A stretch of DNA of 27,341 bases from an uncultured Opitutia bacterium (GTDB taxonomy: Bacteria > Verrucomicrobiota > Verrucomicrobiae > Opitutales > MB11C04). This document shows, piece by piece, positions 9,811 through 27,092 of the stretch. The stretch lies in contig CAJWWH010000011.1 of assembly GCA_913048545.1 (NCBI GenBank), forward strand, positions 1 through 27,341, written 5' to 3'. The translations under genes were made by a program, and so were the position numbers. The first letter of the stretch is position 1. Each line of letters begins with the position of its first letter. Below the pieces are notes generated by a model, which did not search any database, had not been told where the DNA came from, and saw nothing but the letters and a program-made list of their open reading frames with translations.

Positions 9811-12301
9811 AGATACTTCGGTAGAAGAATCCGAGTCTGCAGAGACACAACTTAATCCTAAGCATCGTGGGGTTGCCCTTGCGAGTTTGGTGGCGGGTTA
9901 CACTCTCGCTTTGGGATTTGCGGCAATTTTATTTTTGGGGTCAGACAATCCGCAACCAACTGTGGCGGATGATGAAGTGGTGGAGGAAGGCGAGATGGTC
10001 GTCGCTGCAGAGGGTGCCGACGGTGAATCTTCCGTAATCACCCTTACAGGTGGCAACAGTATTCCATGGACTGCCGGTAAACCATGGGTAGACCCGGGTT
10101 ATACAGCGATTGTGGAAGATGAGGATTTAACTGCTTTTGTGGAAACTGCATCCTTTGTTGATGTCAACACACCGGGTCAATACAAAGTTATTTACACCAT
10201 TAAAGACTCCAAAACTGGGGATGTGATGGATTCAGTTGAACGATTTGTAACCGTGAACGCAGGAGGATTTATTACGGGTGCAAATGTTGCCTACAATGAT
10301 CGATTGGACGGAGTAGTGGTCAAGGACGAAAAAATCACCGCGGTTATTGGAGATAATGACGATGACATTGTTTATGTTGACAACGATGACCGTCATCTTC
10401 GCCTTGGCGGTCACAATCTCAGGGATGGCCGTAACGGAGGAAACGGACGGATTCGTGGAGGTCGTGACCGAGTCGTGATTGATGACGATATTGATTTGGG
10501 ATTACTCGACCGCCGACTGGCCACTTTGGATGACGATGAATTAGTGATTATCGAGGACAACGACGATGATTTAATCGCTCGTCTTGACCGAAAGGATATT
10601 GGATTGGAGCGCGGAGGAAATGACCGGGTTGATGTGGGTAATTTTGTCCCTGATGCCCGTCGTGGAAATTTAAATGATGACGAATTAGGTGCAGTCGGGG
10701 ACTTTGACCAAGACGGAGCCGGTTTTGGAAAAGGAACGATGCCCGGAATAGGTAAAGGCGCCGAGGTTTATGCCTATAATTTCCCCTCTCAAGGAGTGGG
10801 TGCGGGTATTGGAAGTCCAGCAGTTGGAGCAGCGGCAGGTTTTGTAGGACTGGGGGCTGGGATTGGTCAGGCAGTTTTAGACGGACAGGCAGTTCCCGCT
10901 CTTGGCGGAATTGGCACTTACACCCCCTCCGCACCTGCGAAACCGGAAGGTCCGGATGCAGATCAGGACGGAATTCCAGACGCAATGGAAGCATCTTTTC
11001 GCACGAATCCACAATCGAGTGATACGGACAACGACGGAGTGAGCGACGCCGATGAGGTGAGTGCAATGTCTAATCCACGGGACCCTCGCAGCAAACCGGG
11101 CACTCCCGCTCCTGGGGATGACAGCGATCAGGACGGGGTTCCTGCCTCATTGGAAGCTCTTTACGGTCTGAACCCCGCGAACTCTGACAGTGATGGAGAC
11201 GGATTTACTGACGGGGAGGAAATCTCCGCGATGACTAGCCCCACCAACCCAGCCAGTAATCCTGGTGAAATGGGTGGTCCTGCGCTTGCAGTTGCTCCCG
11301 GAGTGGCAGGTGGAGTGGCAGGCTTGGTTGGAGGTGCCGGTGCTGGTGCCGCAGCGGGACTGGTTTCCGGTCGGGTAACTCATCCTTTAGGTTTGGGTGT
11401 GGCAGATGTAGGTGTTGGCATTGATGGTATCGGTCGAGGTGGGGACGGACATGACGATTGGAATTACGATCACCTTCCGAAAGATGGAAACCTTTACATT
11501 ATGATGCATGTGGACGGAAGTGGTTCAATTCTGAGCACCAGAAAAGCATTGGACGAAATGAAAGACACTCTTCTTAAGAATGCGCTGCTTCCTTATTACA
11601 AAAATGACGAAGATCTTTACAACCGCCGGGTTCTCGTAGTGGATGGTGAAGGGGAGCGCACTCTTAAATTCTTTGCCGATGCGGCTAAAAAAGAAAATGT
11701 GTTAGCCCTTGTCTTTCAGGATGAAGCACAACCTGCATATCATCTTCCCAACTTCAACCGTAAGCCCGAGGATCACTACATGGACGACTTGAAAGATCTT
11801 AAGAAGGGTTTAAACGGATATGGCGGACTTTACCGGGGAATCATGTTCCAAGTCGACCGGGGCAAGACTTTTGCCAAATCATTTAAGGAATTTGTGGAAA
11901 ATGCTTGGCGGGGAGATGGTTATCTTTCCGGAGCGGGAGAAAATCTGAAGCCTTATTACTGGCAGGAAAATGGTGACAACATACGTAATCGTGACGGCAT
12001 TGTGTTCAGTGATGAATATCATGTAAATTCCGAAGGTGATCCGGCATACTACATGAACCTGATCATGGAGGCGTCCCGTAAGATCGGTTTGGATTTAGGG
12101 AGATATGGTGGCGGGCAAGAAGATGGCCGTTTCAATGCTAAAGTAAGTGGGGGTTCCAGCAGTACTTCTTCTCTCAATCAGATGTGTCCCGTCAAAAAAG
12201 ATCGCAAGGCTAACCCTTCAATCACCGCAAAGAACTCGAGGGGGCAAACCGTGGCATTTTGCTGCAACGGTTGTAAAAATAAATACACATCGGCTAATTG
12301 A
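9749..12301 (+). CDS. Membrane-anchored multidomain protein: Ig-like, TSP3 repeats, VWA-like and YHS-like parts
   Basis: The 850-residue product has an acidic N-terminus and one transmembrane helix (about residues 43-64). A bacterial Ig-like domain of the DUF5011 type follows (about 97-170). Then comes an Asp-rich region with many DDD/DDE clusters (180-320), a Gly/Ala-rich stretch, and two pairs of thrombospondin type 3 repeats (about 403-505; D-x-D-x-D-G calcium loops such as DSDGDGFTDGEE). A further Gly/Ala-rich stretch leads to an alpha/beta domain starting near residue 585, whose DGSGS at 589-593 resembles the MIDAS of von Willebrand A domains. The C-terminus has a CPV motif (C813) and FCCNGC (C838, C839, C842), like a metal-binding YHS/TRASH finger. 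The AAAGAAAG before the double ATG is a plausible ribosome binding site. The start lies within the upstream small gene. It is probably exported and calcium-binding; the role is unknown. Confidence 0.88.
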   Translation: MMKKEETNEEKIEEATDLTTEDTSVEESESAETQLNPKHRGVALASLVAGYTLALGFAAILFLGSDNPQPTVADDEVVEEGEMVVAAEGADGESSVITLTGGNSIPWTAGKPWVDPGYTAIVEDEDLTAFVETASFVDVNTPGQYKVIYTIKDSKTGDVMDSVERFVTVNAGGFITGANVAYNDRLDGVVVKDEKITAVIGDNDDDIVYVDNDDRHLRLGGHNLRDGRNGGNGRIRGGRDRVVIDDDIDLGLLDRRLATLDDDELVIIEDNDDDLIARLDRKDIGLERGGNDRVDVGNFVPDARRGNLNDDELGAVGDFDQDGAGFGKGTMPGIGKGAEVYAYNFPSQGVGAGIGSPAVGAAAGFVGLGAGIGQAVLDGQAVPALGGIGTYTPSAPAKPEGPDADQDGIPDAMEASFRTNPQSSDTDNDGVSDADEVSAMSNPRDPRSKPGTPAPGDDSDQDGVPASLEALYGLNPANSDSDGDGFTDGEEISAMTSPTNPASNPGEMGGPALAVAPGVAGGVAGLVGGAGAGAAAGLVSGRVTHPLGLGVADVGVGIDGIGRGGDGHDDWNYDHLPKDGNLYIMMHVDGSGSILSTRKALDEMKDTLLKNALLPYYKNDEDLYNRRVLVVDGEGERTLKFFADAAKKENVLALVFQDEAQPAYHLPNFNRKPEDHYMDDLKDLKKGLNGYGGLYRGIMFQVDRGKTFAKSFKEFVENAWRGDGYLSGAGENLKPYYWQENGDNIRNRDGIVFSDEYHVNSEGDPAYYMNLIMEASRKIGLDLGRYGGGQEDGRFNAKVSGGSSSTSSLNQMCPVKKDRKANPSITAKNSRGQTVAFCCNGCKNKYTSAN

Positions 12302-24726: not shown

Positions 24727-24839
24727 GCTTGATCAATCTTGGAATGGCCTTGGCTCCGGCGATTGCCATCGCCCTGTTTGTTTATTTCAAGGATAAATAT
24801 GAAAAGGAACCGGTTGGCGTATTGGTGACCTGCCCATAG
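24723..24839 (+). pseudogene. PrsW-like membrane protease, truncated at the composition junction
   Basis: The ATG overlaps the DUF1080 stop and begins a 38-codon frame. It reads as one hydrophobic helix followed by Y-F-K-D-K-Y-E-K-E-P, the hallmark N-terminus of PrsW-family (M82) intramembrane proteases, which are normally over 200 residues. The frame hits a TAG at 24837 exactly where the sequence turns A+T-rich and virus-like. The last residues (T-C-P) may already lie past the join. The catalytic EExxK and His motifs are absent, so this is a gene fragment whose remainder lies outside the contig. Confidence 0.75.
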
Positions 24840-24911
24840 TCTCTAGAAGCATCCCCGTTATTGATACCCCAGCAGGCTAGTGAGCCGTTGGTTCGAACCC
24901 CACAGGGAGTA
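24838..24911 (+). other. tRNA-like element at the junction (degenerate)
   Basis: A tRNA-like T-arm is present: GTTGG (24887-24891), loop TTCGAAC (24892-24898), CCCAC (24899-24903), with one mismatch. The following AGGGAGT (24904-24910) can pair with AGTCTCT (24838-24844), with one mismatch and one G-T pair, giving a 74-base tRNA-sized element. The interior does not fold into normal D and anticodon arms; only a GGCT-AGTG-AGCC hairpin (24874-24885) is clear. It could be a decayed tRNA, or the 3' half of a tRNA whose 5' half was lost at the join. No anticodon is assigned. Confidence 0.3.
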
Positions 24912-24955
24912 TTTAATCATTATAATATTCACTTATTATAATGATATAGGTAAGA

Positions 24956-25023
24956 TACAGCAATCAACACATCATTTCTGTCTTTTAAACTGAACGGATA
25001 GAGTTCAATTCTCTATGCTGTTG
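24956..25023 (+). tRNA. tRNA-Lys(UUU)-like gene, D-arm reduced; possibly a pseudo-tRNA
   Basis: TACAGCA (24956-24962) pairs with TGCTGTT (25016-25022) in six of seven positions. The T-arm is perfect: TAGAG, loop TTCAATT, CTCTA (24999-25015). Between them, TCTGT-CTTTTAA-ACTGA forms an anticodon arm with one mismatch and a seven-base loop reading anticodon TTT (Lys). Only 14 bases separate the acceptor and anticodon stems, too few for a normal D-arm, and the eukaryotic A box is missing. It is either a decayed tRNA-Lys or an unusual tRNA-like RNA. Confidence 0.4.
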
Positions 25024-25153
25024 GTTTCAGCGCCTGGTGGCCGTATAAACAACTACTTACCTGATTAATATATATTCATTTCACTATGGATATATATAAG
25101 TTTTAGATACCATACAGCAATACACTTCTCAAATTGCCTTTTATGCACTTATT

Positions 25154-25214
25154 CGGTCCCGATGGGATCGGCGTGTTGCGACCCAATCTTCGAGAATGGG
25201 CAACGTTTGGCACG
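25154..25214 (+). other. G+C-richer hairpin island, possible structured RNA
   Basis: In A+T-rich surroundings this segment has a 5-bp hairpin CCGAT-GGG-ATCGG (25159-25171). A second, interrupted stem follows: CGTG/CACG (25172-25175 with 25211-25214) outside, TTG/CAA (25176-25178 with 25201-25203), CCCA/TGGG (25182-25185 with 25197-25200), then TCT/AGA closing a TCG loop. No tRNA or known RNA family is recognised. Confidence 0.35.
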
Positions 25215-25249
25215 TTAAATACAATGGTATCTGTTTTTACAATTTTTTA

Positions 25250-25322
25250 GACCCTGTGGCCAAATGGACAAGGCGACTGCCTTCTAAGCAGTAGATTGTG
25301 GGTTCGATCCCCACCAGGGTTA
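25250..25322 (+). tRNA. tRNA-Arg (anticodon UCU), eukaryotic/viral type
   Basis: A complete cloverleaf can be drawn. Acceptor GACCCTG/CAGGGTT (one G-T pair), D-stem GCC/GGC with a loop AAATGGACAA, anticodon stem ACTGC/GCAGT with loop CTTCTAA (anticodon TCT), five-base variable loop, T-stem GTGGG/CCCAC with loop TTCGATC, discriminator A. There is no intron and no encoded CCA. The A-box-like TGGCCAAATGG and B-box GGTTCGATCCC match the internal promoter of eukaryotic tRNA genes, and a T6 run at 25329-25334 fits RNA polymerase III termination. tRNA-Arg genes reading AGA are often kept by A+T-rich large DNA viruses. Confidence 0.92.
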
Positions 25323-25351
25323 GTATCATTTTTTATTTTTATTTTATTTAT

Positions 25352-25526
25352 GTTAGTGTTATGTTAGTTAGTGTTAGTATTAGTTAGCATTATGTTAGTT
25401 AGTGTTAATTAGTTTTAGTTAGTGTTAGTATTAGTTAGTATTAGTTAGCGTTAGTTAGTGTTATGTTAGTTAGTGTTAATTAGTTAGTATTAGTTATATG
25501 TTAGTTAGTGTTAGTATTAGTGTTAG
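25352..25526 (+). repeat. Degenerate TTAG-based low-complexity array
   Basis: About 175 bases consist almost wholly of TTAG, GTTAG and TATTAG/TGTTAG words in irregular order, with GTTAGTTAGTGTTA recurring. It is not a strict tandem repeat and matches no canonical telomere repeat. It separates the tRNA-Arg gene from the duplicated RNA units. Confidence 0.8.
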
Positions 25527-25618
25527 ATATATAAATGTGTGTATATCGGTTATAAAATTGTTTATACGATATATTCTATTAAATATGTGTAAAAATGATG
25601 TTACATTACATTCAAAAA

Positions 25619-25626
25619 AAAATTGA
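25619..25626 (+). promoter_or_regulatory. AAAATTGA early-promoter-like motif, RNA unit copy 1
   Basis: This is an exact match to the AAAATTGA early promoter motif known from Mimivirus and relatives. It ends 29 bases before the first hairpin of the RNA core, almost the same spacing as in copy 2 (30 bases). Confidence 0.6.
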
Positions 25627-25655
25627 TTTAATAAAAATACATTACTATTAAATGT

Positions 25656-25840
25656 AGAAGACTACCAGCAATATCTTATATTAATTTTATAAAATATATT
25701 TAGTCTTCTGGATAAAAAAGTTAGGTTCGACACAGCGACAAACTACAAATTTAAATAGACTTTCAATCTATTATTGGAGTTTAGCCCAAGTTCTCCTTTA
25801 AAAAAAACTAGGCACCACTTACGAACCTGTTATGACTTTT
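25656..25840 (+). ncRNA. Structured RNA unit, copy 1 (anticodon-arm-like hairpin plus H-type pseudoknot)
   Basis: There is no open frame of note. Hairpin 1 has outer stem AGAAGACTA/TAGTCTTCT (25656-25664 with 25701-25709) and inner stem TATATT/AATATA (25677-25682 with 25693-25698). The main domain is closed by AAAAGT/ACTTTT (25716-25721 with 25835-25840) and AGGTTCG/CGAACCT (25723-25729 with 25822-25828). Inside are a 6-bp hairpin AATAGA-CTTTCAA-TCTATT (25754-25772) whose seven-base loop looks like an anticodon loop, and a pseudoknot. Pseudoknot stem 1 is GGAG/CTCC (25776-25779 with 25793-25796); stem 2 is GCC (25784-25786) with GGC (25811-25813), extended by AG/CT. An A-rich third loop and a T-rich tail follow. 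The family is not recognised. Confidence 0.6.
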
Positions 25841-25901
25841 TTTCTTTTTCTTTTTTATGTGTATATCGGTTATAAAAATGATCTTATATTACATTCAAAA
25901 A

Positions 25902-25909
25902 AAAATTGA
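25902..25909 (+). promoter_or_regulatory. AAAATTGA early-promoter-like motif, RNA unit copy 2
   Basis: An exact AAAATTGA match, ending 30 bases before the first hairpin of the second RNA core, in conserved A-rich context. Confidence 0.6.
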
Positions 25910-25939
25910 TTTAATAAAAATACATTACTAATAAATCTA

Positions 25940-26111
25940 AGAAGACTCCCAGCAATATATTAATTTAATAAAATATAATGTCTTCTGGATTAAAAAGTTA
26001 GGTTCGACACTGCTACACACTCAAATTATTAAACAGACTTTTAATCTGTTACTAGAAGTTTTGTTTGGTTCTTCTCAAAAACTAAACACCATCGAACCTG
26101 TTATCACTTTT
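25940..26111 (+). ncRNA. Structured RNA unit, copy 2 (anticodon-arm-like hairpin plus H-type pseudoknot)
   Basis: The architecture equals copy 1. Hairpin 1 is AGAAGAC/GTCTTCT (25940-25946 with 25980-25986) with the same inner TATATT/AATATA stem. The closing stems are AAAAGT/ACTTTT (25993-25998 with 26106-26111) and AGGTTCG/CGAACCT (26000-26006 with 26093-26099). The anticodon-arm-like hairpin is AACAGA-CTTTTAA-TCTGTT (26032-26050); its core is identical to the anticodon arm of eukaryotic tRNA-Lys(UUU). The pseudoknot has stem 1 AGAAG/CTTCT (26054-26058 with 26071-26075), loop 1 TTTT, stem 2 GTTTGG/CTAAAC (26063-26068 with 26082-26087, one G-T pair), loop 2 TT and loop 3 CAAAAA. Compensatory changes relative to copy 1 support the anticodon-like stem and both pseudoknot stems. 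Confidence 0.6.
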
Positions 26112-26137
26112 TTCTCTTTTACATTACATATTTATAC

Positions 26138-26203: not shown

Positions 26204-26464
26204 ATGTCCGATATTTCCCAGTATTCATACGTCTATTCACTTAATAATTTCAAAAGTTCTGGAATTGTCAGTGAAGTTGATGAAAACAAAATCACATATA
26301 CCTGTAATAATACAGGAGAAAGTGTTACAGTAGACTGTAATTATGTCACTGATGACCCAACAATTATCATCCAACAACTCCTTATTGAGAATCAAGAACT
26401 ACGAGATAATTATTTCAATGTAAATCAGGAAATTATCAAACTTAGGACCAATAATGGTTTATAA
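26204..26464 (+). CDS. Small hypothetical protein, virus-like
   Basis: The 86-residue product has a beta-rich N-terminal half (S-G-I-V-S-E-V-D-E-N-K-I-T-Y-T then a C-N-N-T-G-E-S-V turn), resembling a small SH3-like or KOW-like barrel. The C-terminal half is helical (about residues 52-82), with heptad-like I/L spacing suggesting a coiled coil. No family is recognised. Support for a real gene comes from the AAAATTGA motif upstream, the strong A/T codon bias and a perfect palindrome starting 2 bases before the end of its stop codon. Bacterial-type ribosome binding signals are absent. It could be an early viral protein; function is unknown. Confidence 0.72.
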   Translation: MSDISQYSYVYSLNNFKSSGIVSEVDENKITYTCNNTGESVTVDCNYVTDDPTIIIQQLLIENQELRDNYFNVNQEIIKLRTNNGL

Positions 26465-26498: not shown

Positions 26499-27092
26499 TT
26501 ATTTCTCAACAATCTTATAAGCCCTAAGAGGAAATTCTAAATAGGATCTAAGTTCTAAAAATCCATCTTCTTTTGGATTACTATGAAATTCCACAAGACC
26601 ATCTAATTCTGGATTTATAAATCTACAGATATTGAGAAGAAGAGTATTTGGGAATTGAGAACCAGACTCACTGAGATAATTCAGTTGCAGTGTATTCTGA
26701 TTCTTGAGTAGTTTGGCCTTTAATACAAACCAATTTAATGTTCCCCAAATTTCCTGATAATACTGATGAACTGTAAGTATTTCATCATAAATTTTTCCAT
26801 ATTGATATGACAGAGTGACATCTGGAATACCATTAGAATACCACCTCAATTTCATCAAAAATTCTCTTGTGAAATTAGGTTCTTTTTTTTCCAGAAAATC
26901 AACATATTTTGATTCTTTCTTCTTGAGACAAGTAGCAAAATCCTTTTGGTAGTTGTCAAACTTACAACAGAAACAAGGGGGGGAAATGGAGCATCGGTGT
27001 TCTTTTTTTGGGATTTCTCCATTTAGGGCGATTGCTAACTCCAACATTTGATTCTTTGAGGACATTTTGATTGAACTATGATATATAGCCAC
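26499..27092 (-). CDS. Hypothetical Cys-containing protein, virus-like
   Basis: The product is up to 197 residues. Two starts are possible: 27092, or an internal Met at 27065 giving 188 residues (MSSKNQ...). The upstream AAAATTGA lies 25 and 52 bases from them respectively; the longer distance is more usual, so 27065 is a serious alternative. The N-terminal region has a Cys cluster (C33, C39, C41, C42 and C54 in the long form, around PPCFCCKF), perhaps a zinc-binding site. The rest is a mixed helical fold rich in Leu, Tyr, Lys and Asn with no signal peptide or membrane helix. No family recognised. It converges on the 86-residue gene and ends at the shared palindrome. Confidence 0.75.
   Translation of the reverse strand: MAIYHSSIKMSSKNQMLELAIALNGEIPKKEHRCSISPPCFCCKFDNYQKDFATCLKKKESKYVDFLEKKEPNFTREFLMKLRWYSNGIPDVTLSYQYGKIYDEILTVHQYYQEIWGTLNWFVLKAKLLKNQNTLQLNYLSESGSQFPNTLLLNICRFINPELDGLVEFHSNPKEDGFLELRSYLEFPLRAYKIVEK

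Follow-up and report, generated by a model that had tools for sequence, protein, structure and literature searches.

What are the structured RNAs encoded at the AT-rich end of a contig assigned to an Opitutales bacterium, and which protein might they serve? A reading of the window (the whole 27,341-nt stretch of DNA analysed here) that was made from the letters alone, hereafter the sequence-only reading, had seen in them a tandem pair of viral RNAs standing by themselves. The RNAs fit better in an array-forming family tied to Ro60-like genes, which resembles both the YrlA Y RNAs of bacteria and the Class I RNAs of Dictyostelium. The array probably encodes six small noncoding RNAs that belong to a viral family resembling Y RNAs, partner a viral Ro60 and display tRNA arms.

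The origin of the DNA has to be considered first. The window is bacterial over bases 1 to ~24,830 (GC 40-55%), where it carries genes for an HtrA-type protease, an AI-2E transporter, a GH5 protein and a 3-keto-disaccharide hydrolase; the remaining ~2.5 kb has a different composition, with 26-31% GC. The nearest relatives of the last complete bacterial gene are found in Opitutales and other Verrucomicrobiota. In the relatives L474, L475 and L476 the next open frame after this gene has 232-234 residues; in the window it ends after ~35 matching residues. Because the AT-rich remainder differs in composition, and a gene that is complete in these three relatives is cut, the simplest view of the window is that of an assembly chimera, an Opitutales bacterium to ~24,830 followed by ~2.5 kb of viral DNA.

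24827..24840, no strand: approximate junction between unrelated genomes (assembly chimera), the bacterial gene being cut after ~35 codons

Both strands of the 27 kb window were scanned for AG plus five nucleotides, CAGC or CTGC at most 11 nt further on, a fully paired 3' strand ending in CT, and then G. There were seven matches. One, at 12146, is in bacterial sequence, and the other six fall within 1.15 kb of the viral part (24948-26100), all on the plus strand. Together with a tRNA gene located within the array they are the following:

24948..25063, plus strand: RNA element 1, 116 nt, stem AGGTAAG/CTTACCT followed by G, motif AT-ACAGCAAT
25105..25233, plus strand: RNA element 2, 129 nt, stem AGATACC/GGTATCT followed by G, motif AT-ACAGCAAT
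25250..25322, plus strand: ordinary tRNA-Arg, anticodon TCT (Rfam at gathering threshold, ARAGORN)
25656..25710, plus strand: RNA element 3, 55 nt, stem AGAAGAC/GTCTTCT followed by G, motif TA-CCAGCAAT, RF01414 24.6 bits, E 0.08
25723..25829, plus strand: RNA element 4, 107 nt, stem AGGTTCG/CGAACCT followed by G, drifted motif AC-ACAGCGAC
25940..25987, plus strand: RNA element 5, 48 nt, stem AGAAGAC/GTCTTCT followed by G, motif TC-CCAGCAAT, RF01414 24.3 bits, E 0.095
26000..26100, plus strand: RNA element 6, 101 nt, stem AGGTTCG/CGAACCT followed by G, drifted motif AC-ACTGCTAC

The two units of the sequence-only reading are thus real as structured RNAs, but their boundaries had to be redrawn: each consists of two elements (55 + 107 nt and 48 + 101 nt), and with two further elements upstream (24948-25063 and 25105-25233) the array counts six in all. 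The perfect 7-bp terminal stem (5' AG..., ...CU 3', then G) is present in all six and is closed in all six minimum-energy folds. In four elements CAGCAA stands three bases past the 5' stem strand, or, read as (A/C)CAGCAA, two bases past it; in elements 4 and 6 the motif has drifted. ARAGORN and Rfam at gathering threshold recognised a tRNA cloverleaf in none of the six, in agreement with the earlier remark that no full tRNA can be drawn in the units. The Rfam search that had been recommended at the time returned only tRNA-Arg from the whole window at gathering thresholds; below threshold, elements 3 and 5 match RF01414, the family of the Dictyostelium Class I RNAs, and YrlA (RF02553) has no match in the window, even below threshold.

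Some other features of the viral part may be mentioned here. At its edge (24840-24912) there is a T-arm-like sequence, GGTTCGAACC, possibly the 3' part of a tRNA or of an element cut by the join. By eye, AT-rich imperfect palindromes resembling transcript-end hairpins can be seen at 24916-24945, after this tRNA-like piece, and at 25066-25099, after element 1, and a degenerate repeat rich in TTAGT/GTTAGT occupies 25340-25530, between the tRNA-Arg and element 3. The 188-aa protein encoded at 26499-27065 (minus strand) has a cysteine-rich start and four relatives in the protein database, all on short metagenome contigs; it has no relative in the IMG/VR, phage or GTDB collections, and the neighbouring 86-aa ORF has none in the phage collection.

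Relatives of the array were sought in viral DNA. In IMG/VR the window stem pattern GTTAGGTTCGACAC was found at 73 loci, none of which had CGAACC within the next 170 bases. The pattern GAAGACTNCCAGCAAT was found at 77 loci, four with GTCTTC downstream, and all four were taken as chance; two of these, L127 and L144, identical in sequence, close a 7-bp stem, but the next base is T, not G. The promoter-coupled pattern AAAATTGA...MCAGCAAT had at least 120 matches in IMG/VR and one true array, L267, among the matches listed; a narrower form of it yielded no new array among the at least 120 IMG/VR matches listed. L267 is a 13-kb phage contig with RecA, RuvC and clamp-loader-type genes, in which six tandem elements end just before a gene of 553 residues. 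Its elements match RF01414 with 33.7 and 33.5 bits (E 3.7e-4 and 4.2e-4), and a YrlA match of 31.6 bits (E 1.5e-4) lies inside an element. RNA-like patterns brought up 357 viral loci, of which two had matches no more than 800 nt from each other: L267, with its six in a row beside the Ro-like gene, and L115, with two isolated matches ~600 nt apart.

The 553-residue protein has a DUF7788 domain. Homologues of it are present in 429 phage records, and those of a Felixounavirus protein used as query in 681; of the listed proteins most carry the annotation hypothetical or RNA-binding, and several are called Ro-like. Six of seven proteins tested contain both DUF2828 and DUF7788, the Leptolyngbya phage protein only DUF7788. 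A sequence profile gives weak matches to TROVE and Ro60 chains, with E from 0.013 to 0.47. For the L294 protein an AlphaFold2 model (pLDDT 77.7, pTM 0.73) was made, which matches the structures of the Ro autoantigen (1yvr, E 2.5e-8), Deinococcus Rsr (2nvo, 1.6e-7) and Thermus phage phiLo Ro60 (9l5y, 3.3e-7). It also matches models of viral proteins, from a Mimiviridae member (2.9e-17) and Cafeteria roenbergensis virus (1.3e-15), as well as proteins of Pithovirus LCPAC304 and Marseillevirus LCMAC202. By these model-to-model matches, giant viruses possess the Ro60-like partner fold.

The elements are strongly associated with this gene. Using the geometry of a 7-nt stem strand, two to three nucleotides, CAGCAA, and later the complementary strand followed by G, we searched 113 Ro-like loci (1.26 Mb) and found 333 elements on the strand of the gene and 8 on the opposite strand; three Markov resamples of the same loci contained 7, 6 and 7. 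At least one element occurs in 98 of the 113 loci and three or more in 69, figures that overstate independence because many of the loci are close relatives (L278 is the contig of L267, there are many Felixounavirus relatives, and L358/L359 and L376/L386 are close pairs). The element nearest to the Ro-like gene is at a median distance of 53 nt, and within 500 nt in 89 of the 98 loci. A further 269 viral loci, chosen because they matched patterns resembling the RNA, had 37 and 30 matches; seven loci had two or more, and none had three. The first scan, with three bases before CAGCAA, left 43 of 103 loci empty, and the figure of 98 of 113 was reached after adding a second spacing, found in 47 empty loci. 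A second group of Ro-like loci was taken from IMG/VR (the best 80 of 480 relatives), and L374, L375 and L385 (fragments of P100 and a nearly duplicate Listeria phage) were left out of the count.

The phages that bear elements include Leptolyngbya phage Lbo-JY46, Klebsiella phage KP2025, Escherichia phage vB_EcoM_E9, Mycobacterium phage Douge, Listeria P100, Campylobacter F357, Enterococcus EFDG1 and Staphylococcus SEP9. By the present definition 15 of the 113 loci are without an element (L309, L310, L313, L318, L319, L336, L341, L354, L372, L273, L276, L377, L378, L379 and L383), among them those of Vibrio KVP40, Aeromonas Aeh1, phiM19, Prevotella Lak-B3, XaC1 and Alsa_2; these may use another motif or carry their RNAs elsewhere. 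In Listeria phage CKA15 (L386; OR088597) three elements lie in an unannotated gap (L386 3871-4134), by eye behind TTGACA-17-TATCAT. The highly transcribed ORFs CKA15_059-061 (L386 2725-3035) were considered as elements and rejected, since they lie elsewhere and hold no CAGCAA element. On two contigs of Ro-like phages other RNA families were encountered: a Hatchet ribozyme match of 75.1 bits (L282 3304-3454), and an abiF RNA match of 50.1 bits (L288 4198-4235), with a tmRNA and numerous tRNAs on the same contig.

All six window elements have the 7-bp stem and following G, and they form a same-strand array. We consider it very probable that the window RNAs belong to this family and share its association with Ro60. 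No Ro-like gene is present in the ~2.5 kb of viral DNA that runs from the join to the end of the contig, and for this reason the partner of the window RNAs themselves is deduced from the relatives.

The terminal stem is maintained by compensatory change. To avoid selecting by pairing, sites were found by the similarity of element interiors and had to carry at least three changes in the stem context (spacing 2 or 3, final G dropped). The stem closed with the site's own strand at all 25 such sites and with the strand of the query at 0 of 15; permuted strands closed 2.6 sites on average and at most 7 in 500 permutations. Two earlier counts were discarded for register errors and replaced by the present test: in one, double changes were paired in 53 cases and broken in 36, and single changes paired in 55 and broken in 195; in the other, 17 of 33 sites closed against a permuted mean of 1.6. 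The interiors of the elements are too variable for a covariance model.

Within these variable interiors, recurrent hairpins can be recognised. The commonest signature is a C-U-NNN-A-A loop on a 5-bp stem, that is, the loop of an anticodon arm, in 22 of 191 clusters with the window included (shuffle mean 0.37, maximum 4 of 300). Leaving out a true tRNA among the 22 reduces them to 21. Outside the window such mimics occur in 19 of 184 clusters, at 16 loci, and on the reverse strand in none; the other 165 clusters have no perfect anticodon arm. The triplets of the 22 arms read as sense anticodons, with no stop anticodon among them, and their first base is T in 10, G in 9, C in 3 and A in none. 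A single phage, Leptolyngbya phage Lbo-JY46, displays TTT, TTT and GCA. The T-arm-like signatures U-U-NNN-A-U (12) and U-U-NNN-G-U (11) are also far above shuffles; U-U-NNN-U-U, counted in the actual sequences only, is as common as one of them (12 clusters). In a set of 200 distinct elements, a T-loop-like sequence is found in 35 of the 70 long ones.

In the window, the anticodon-arm mimics are in elements 4 and 6, which with their drifted motifs escape the CAGCAA scan:

25755..25771, plus strand: anticodon-arm mimic ATAGA-CTTTCAA-TCTAT in element 4, Glu-type UUC (signature scan, copy comparison)
26033..26049, plus strand: anticodon-arm mimic ACAGA-CTTTTAA-TCTGT in element 6, Lys-type UUU (signature scan, copy comparison)
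25776..25813, plus strand: possible H-type pseudoknot in element 4, S1 25776-25779/25793-25796, S2 25784-25786/25811-25813
26054..26087, plus strand: possible pseudoknot in element 6, S1 26054-26058/26071-26075, S2 26063-26066/26084-26087 (by eye and from changed pairs)

The two copies are identical at 49 of 52 positions upstream, 45 of 48 in the 5' element (7 gap columns) and 80 of 98 in the 3' element (12 gap columns). When they were aligned, the four base pairs that the sequence-only reading had listed as changed on both sides were found where it had placed them: T25756-A25770 to C26034-G26048 in the anticodon-like stem, and G25777-C25795 to A26056-T26073, C25785-G25812 to T26064-A26086 and C25786-G25811 to T26065-A26085 in the pseudoknot. 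Its view of a structured RNA family with compensatory changes is supported, and its anticodon-arm mimic is genuine, with counterparts in 16 loci elsewhere. In its pseudoknot the 'TT loop 2' was not recovered; with the stems that were named we count 6 and 4 bases there. The three two-sided changes that favour the pseudoknot come from two sequences with short stems. Minimum-energy folding of elements 4 and 6 forms neither the anticodon-like hairpin nor the proposed pseudoknot, so both structures depend on the comparison of the copies. In element 1, a T-arm-like hairpin and a CTTTTAA loop, on a stem with one U.U mismatch, can be made out by eye.

These data bear on two simple explanations of the array. 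It could consist of decayed tRNA genes or chance repeats, as the weak tRNA match in element 1 (18.2 bits) might suggest, yet ARAGORN recognises a tRNA in just 1 of 339 elements, the stems covary, and the strand bias is 333 to 8; we regard this explanation as scarcely credible. Alternatively, the terminal stems could be mere processing signals of tRNA arrays and the RNAs between them spacers without a function of their own. The 7-bp stems are indeed acceptor-like, and some arrays lie in or beside tRNA clusters. Arrays free of tRNAs also exist, however (none was found in L267 by ARAGORN and none in L275 by Rfam), and the anticodon and T arms of the interiors far exceed shuffles, which makes processing signals a very improbable explanation.

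It is instructive to compare the family with known small RNAs. Like the viral elements, the bacterial Y RNAs (YrlA, RF02553) with Rsr/Ro60 are small RNAs encoded beside a gene of the Ro60 fold, and the tRNA-like T-arm/D-arm module of YrlA is matched by some long elements of the relatives. Four YrlA matches overlap such elements, with 40.1, 34.3, 32.4 and 31.6 bits (E 1.3e-5 to 2.3e-3; the gathering score is 69), and those of KP2025 (40.1 and 34.3 bits) cover the whole model. What the window elements show is not this module but anticodon arms and a T-arm-like hairpin. The viral RNAs differ from YrlA also in the CAGCAA motif, which is missing from the part of the YrlA consensus that was compared, in forming arrays of up to six or more, in having short members and anticodon arms, and in their partner, which belongs to the DUF2828/DUF7788 branch of the Ro60 fold. 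Chen et al. (2014) reportedly described Y RNAs of bacteria and mycobacteriophages. According to the part of PMC12282133 consulted, which cites Y RNAs of bacteria and mycobacteriophages, the mycobacteriophage Y RNAs and the putative ones of CKA15 likewise come from phages with a Ro-like gene nearby; the CKA15 regions discussed there as possible Y RNAs, without a structure, are other transcribed regions (CKA15_059-061).

The Dictyostelium Class I RNAs (RF01414) share with our family the short terminal stem, the AG start, the CUG end and the motif ACAGCAA beside the 5' strand, which is exact in four of the six window elements. As described in the consulted part of PMC7919456, they have a stem joining the ends and an 11-nt motif beside its 5' strand, start with AAG and end with CUGU, are 42-65 nt long in D. 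discoideum, and were published as unique to dictyostelids. Elements 3 (55 nt) and 5 (48 nt) fall in this size range, and element 3 resembles a Class I RNA in size and ends; the other four, of 101-129 nt, are above it. A further criterion for Class I RNAs is a DUSE promoter ~60 nt upstream, and elements 3 and 5 have AAAATTGA upstream. The stem has 7 bp here, and the cited description of the Class I RNAs contains no link to Ro60. The gathering score of RF01414 (41.5) was not reached either by the window elements (24.6 and 24.3 bits) or by the best relative (39.3, L271), and the elements of 11 further Ro-like loci likewise stayed below the gathering scores of RF01414 and YrlA.

This likeness raises the question whether the window RNAs, as viral kin of the Class I RNAs, are instead ligands of an RRM protein in an amoeba host, without any connection to Ro60. 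The shared ends, stem and motif and the size of elements 3 and 5 (PMC7919456, in the part consulted) would fit, RF01414 is the best sub-threshold Rfam match of these two elements, and the AT-rich part may come from a giant virus. However, the window reaches no more than 24.6 bits with RF01414, less than bacteriophage elements next to the Ro-like genes of L271 (39.3 bits) and L267 (33.7), and four of the elements are too long, so that we consider this origin improbable. In the literature searched, from which subscription titles were mostly absent, no description of a CAGCAA stem family beside viral Ro-like genes was found, nor a report of the family's anticodon arms or of a link to Class I RNAs.

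One clue to the kind of virus is a promoter-like motif upstream of elements 3 and 5:

25619..25626, plus strand: AAAATTGA promoter-like motif, 29 bases before element 3 (motif count, copy alignment)
25902..25909, plus strand: AAAATTGA promoter-like motif, 30 bases before element 5 (motif count, copy alignment)

Both distances are those given by the sequence-only reading, and in the AT-rich part the motif precedes two more units, the ORFs starting at 26204 and 27065. It is described as a mimivirus early motif and reported ahead of 45% of predicted mimivirus genes (PMC5294985, in the part consulted). In the whole window it occurs 7 times against 4.96 expected, which is not above chance. We lean towards a giant virus rather than a phage as the source of the viral part; it may belong to the Imitervirales, where the sequence-only reading would have looked for homologues.

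How might such RNAs work? Each is closed by an acceptor-like stem of 7 bp followed by one unpaired G. At 98 of 113 viral loci such RNAs lie near the gene of the Ro60-like protein, which makes the conserved stem and motif most likely a binding site for this virus-encoded DUF2828/DUF7788 protein; what we observe is the association, and it is quite likely that the protein also binds the RNAs. The rest of the molecule is a changeable display module, which, as read from the sequence, is in some RNAs a faithful anticodon arm and in others a T-arm/D-arm module as in YrlA. The displayed arms may attract proteins acting on tRNA, and, used as bait, may compete with, or tether Ro60 to, host enzymes that act on anticodon loops. 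The chief targets might be the anticodon nucleases of antiviral defence, to which elements 4 and 6 of the window would present Glu- and Lys-type arms.

Such a decoy role is a tentative proposal, to which we give somewhat less than an even chance; two published leads point towards anticodon nucleases. YrlA has been suggested to possibly inhibit an anticodon nuclease, and Salmonella YrlA was not cut by the nuclease (PMC7790460, in the part consulted), for which reason bait that acts by being cleaved has less to speak for it. PARIS cleaves tRNA-Lys, and a phage tRNA-Lys escapes this cleavage (PMC11455837, in the part consulted). Phage tRNAs resistant to anticodon nucleases likewise offer viral anticodon loops to the host, but they are whole tRNAs, and the viral elements are not recognised as tRNAs. 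Almost as likely, and equally tentative, is that the same RNAs and the same Ro60-like partner use their modules to tether Ro60 to enzymes of RNA decay or repair (PNPase, RtcB, RNA ligases, tRNA-modifying enzymes), not to trap nucleases. Deinococcus Rsr is tethered to PNPase via a Y RNA (PMC7790460), and a jumbo-phage survey treats TROVE proteins under RNA repair (PMC7824862), each in the part of the source consulted. The Ro-like genes of Listeria P100 and CKA15 have a gene for a tRNA splicing ligase close by, and in Xanthomonas XaC1 an RNA ligase and a tRNA nucleotidyltransferase are nearby, though XaC1 has no element by our scan; these gene neighbours come from the annotation of a few records. 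Tethering leaves unexplained why different anticodons are displayed, sometimes within one phage (Lbo-JY46).

Returning to the Y-RNA-like family with a Ro60-like partner, its widest form would extend from phages to giant viruses a Ro60 RNP with interchangeable tRNA-arm decoys against anticodon nucleases, of which the Class I RNAs would be cellular members with a Ro60-type partner. This is speculative and, as a whole, rather unlikely. More immediately, a shared RNA with anticodon-arm modules would give the Ro-like genes of phages (681 records) a concrete and testable function. The Ro60/Y RNA system is known from human autoimmunity. The viral family described here would link it to the counter-defence of phages, and it suggests what kind of protein partner the Class I RNAs of Dictyostelium may have.
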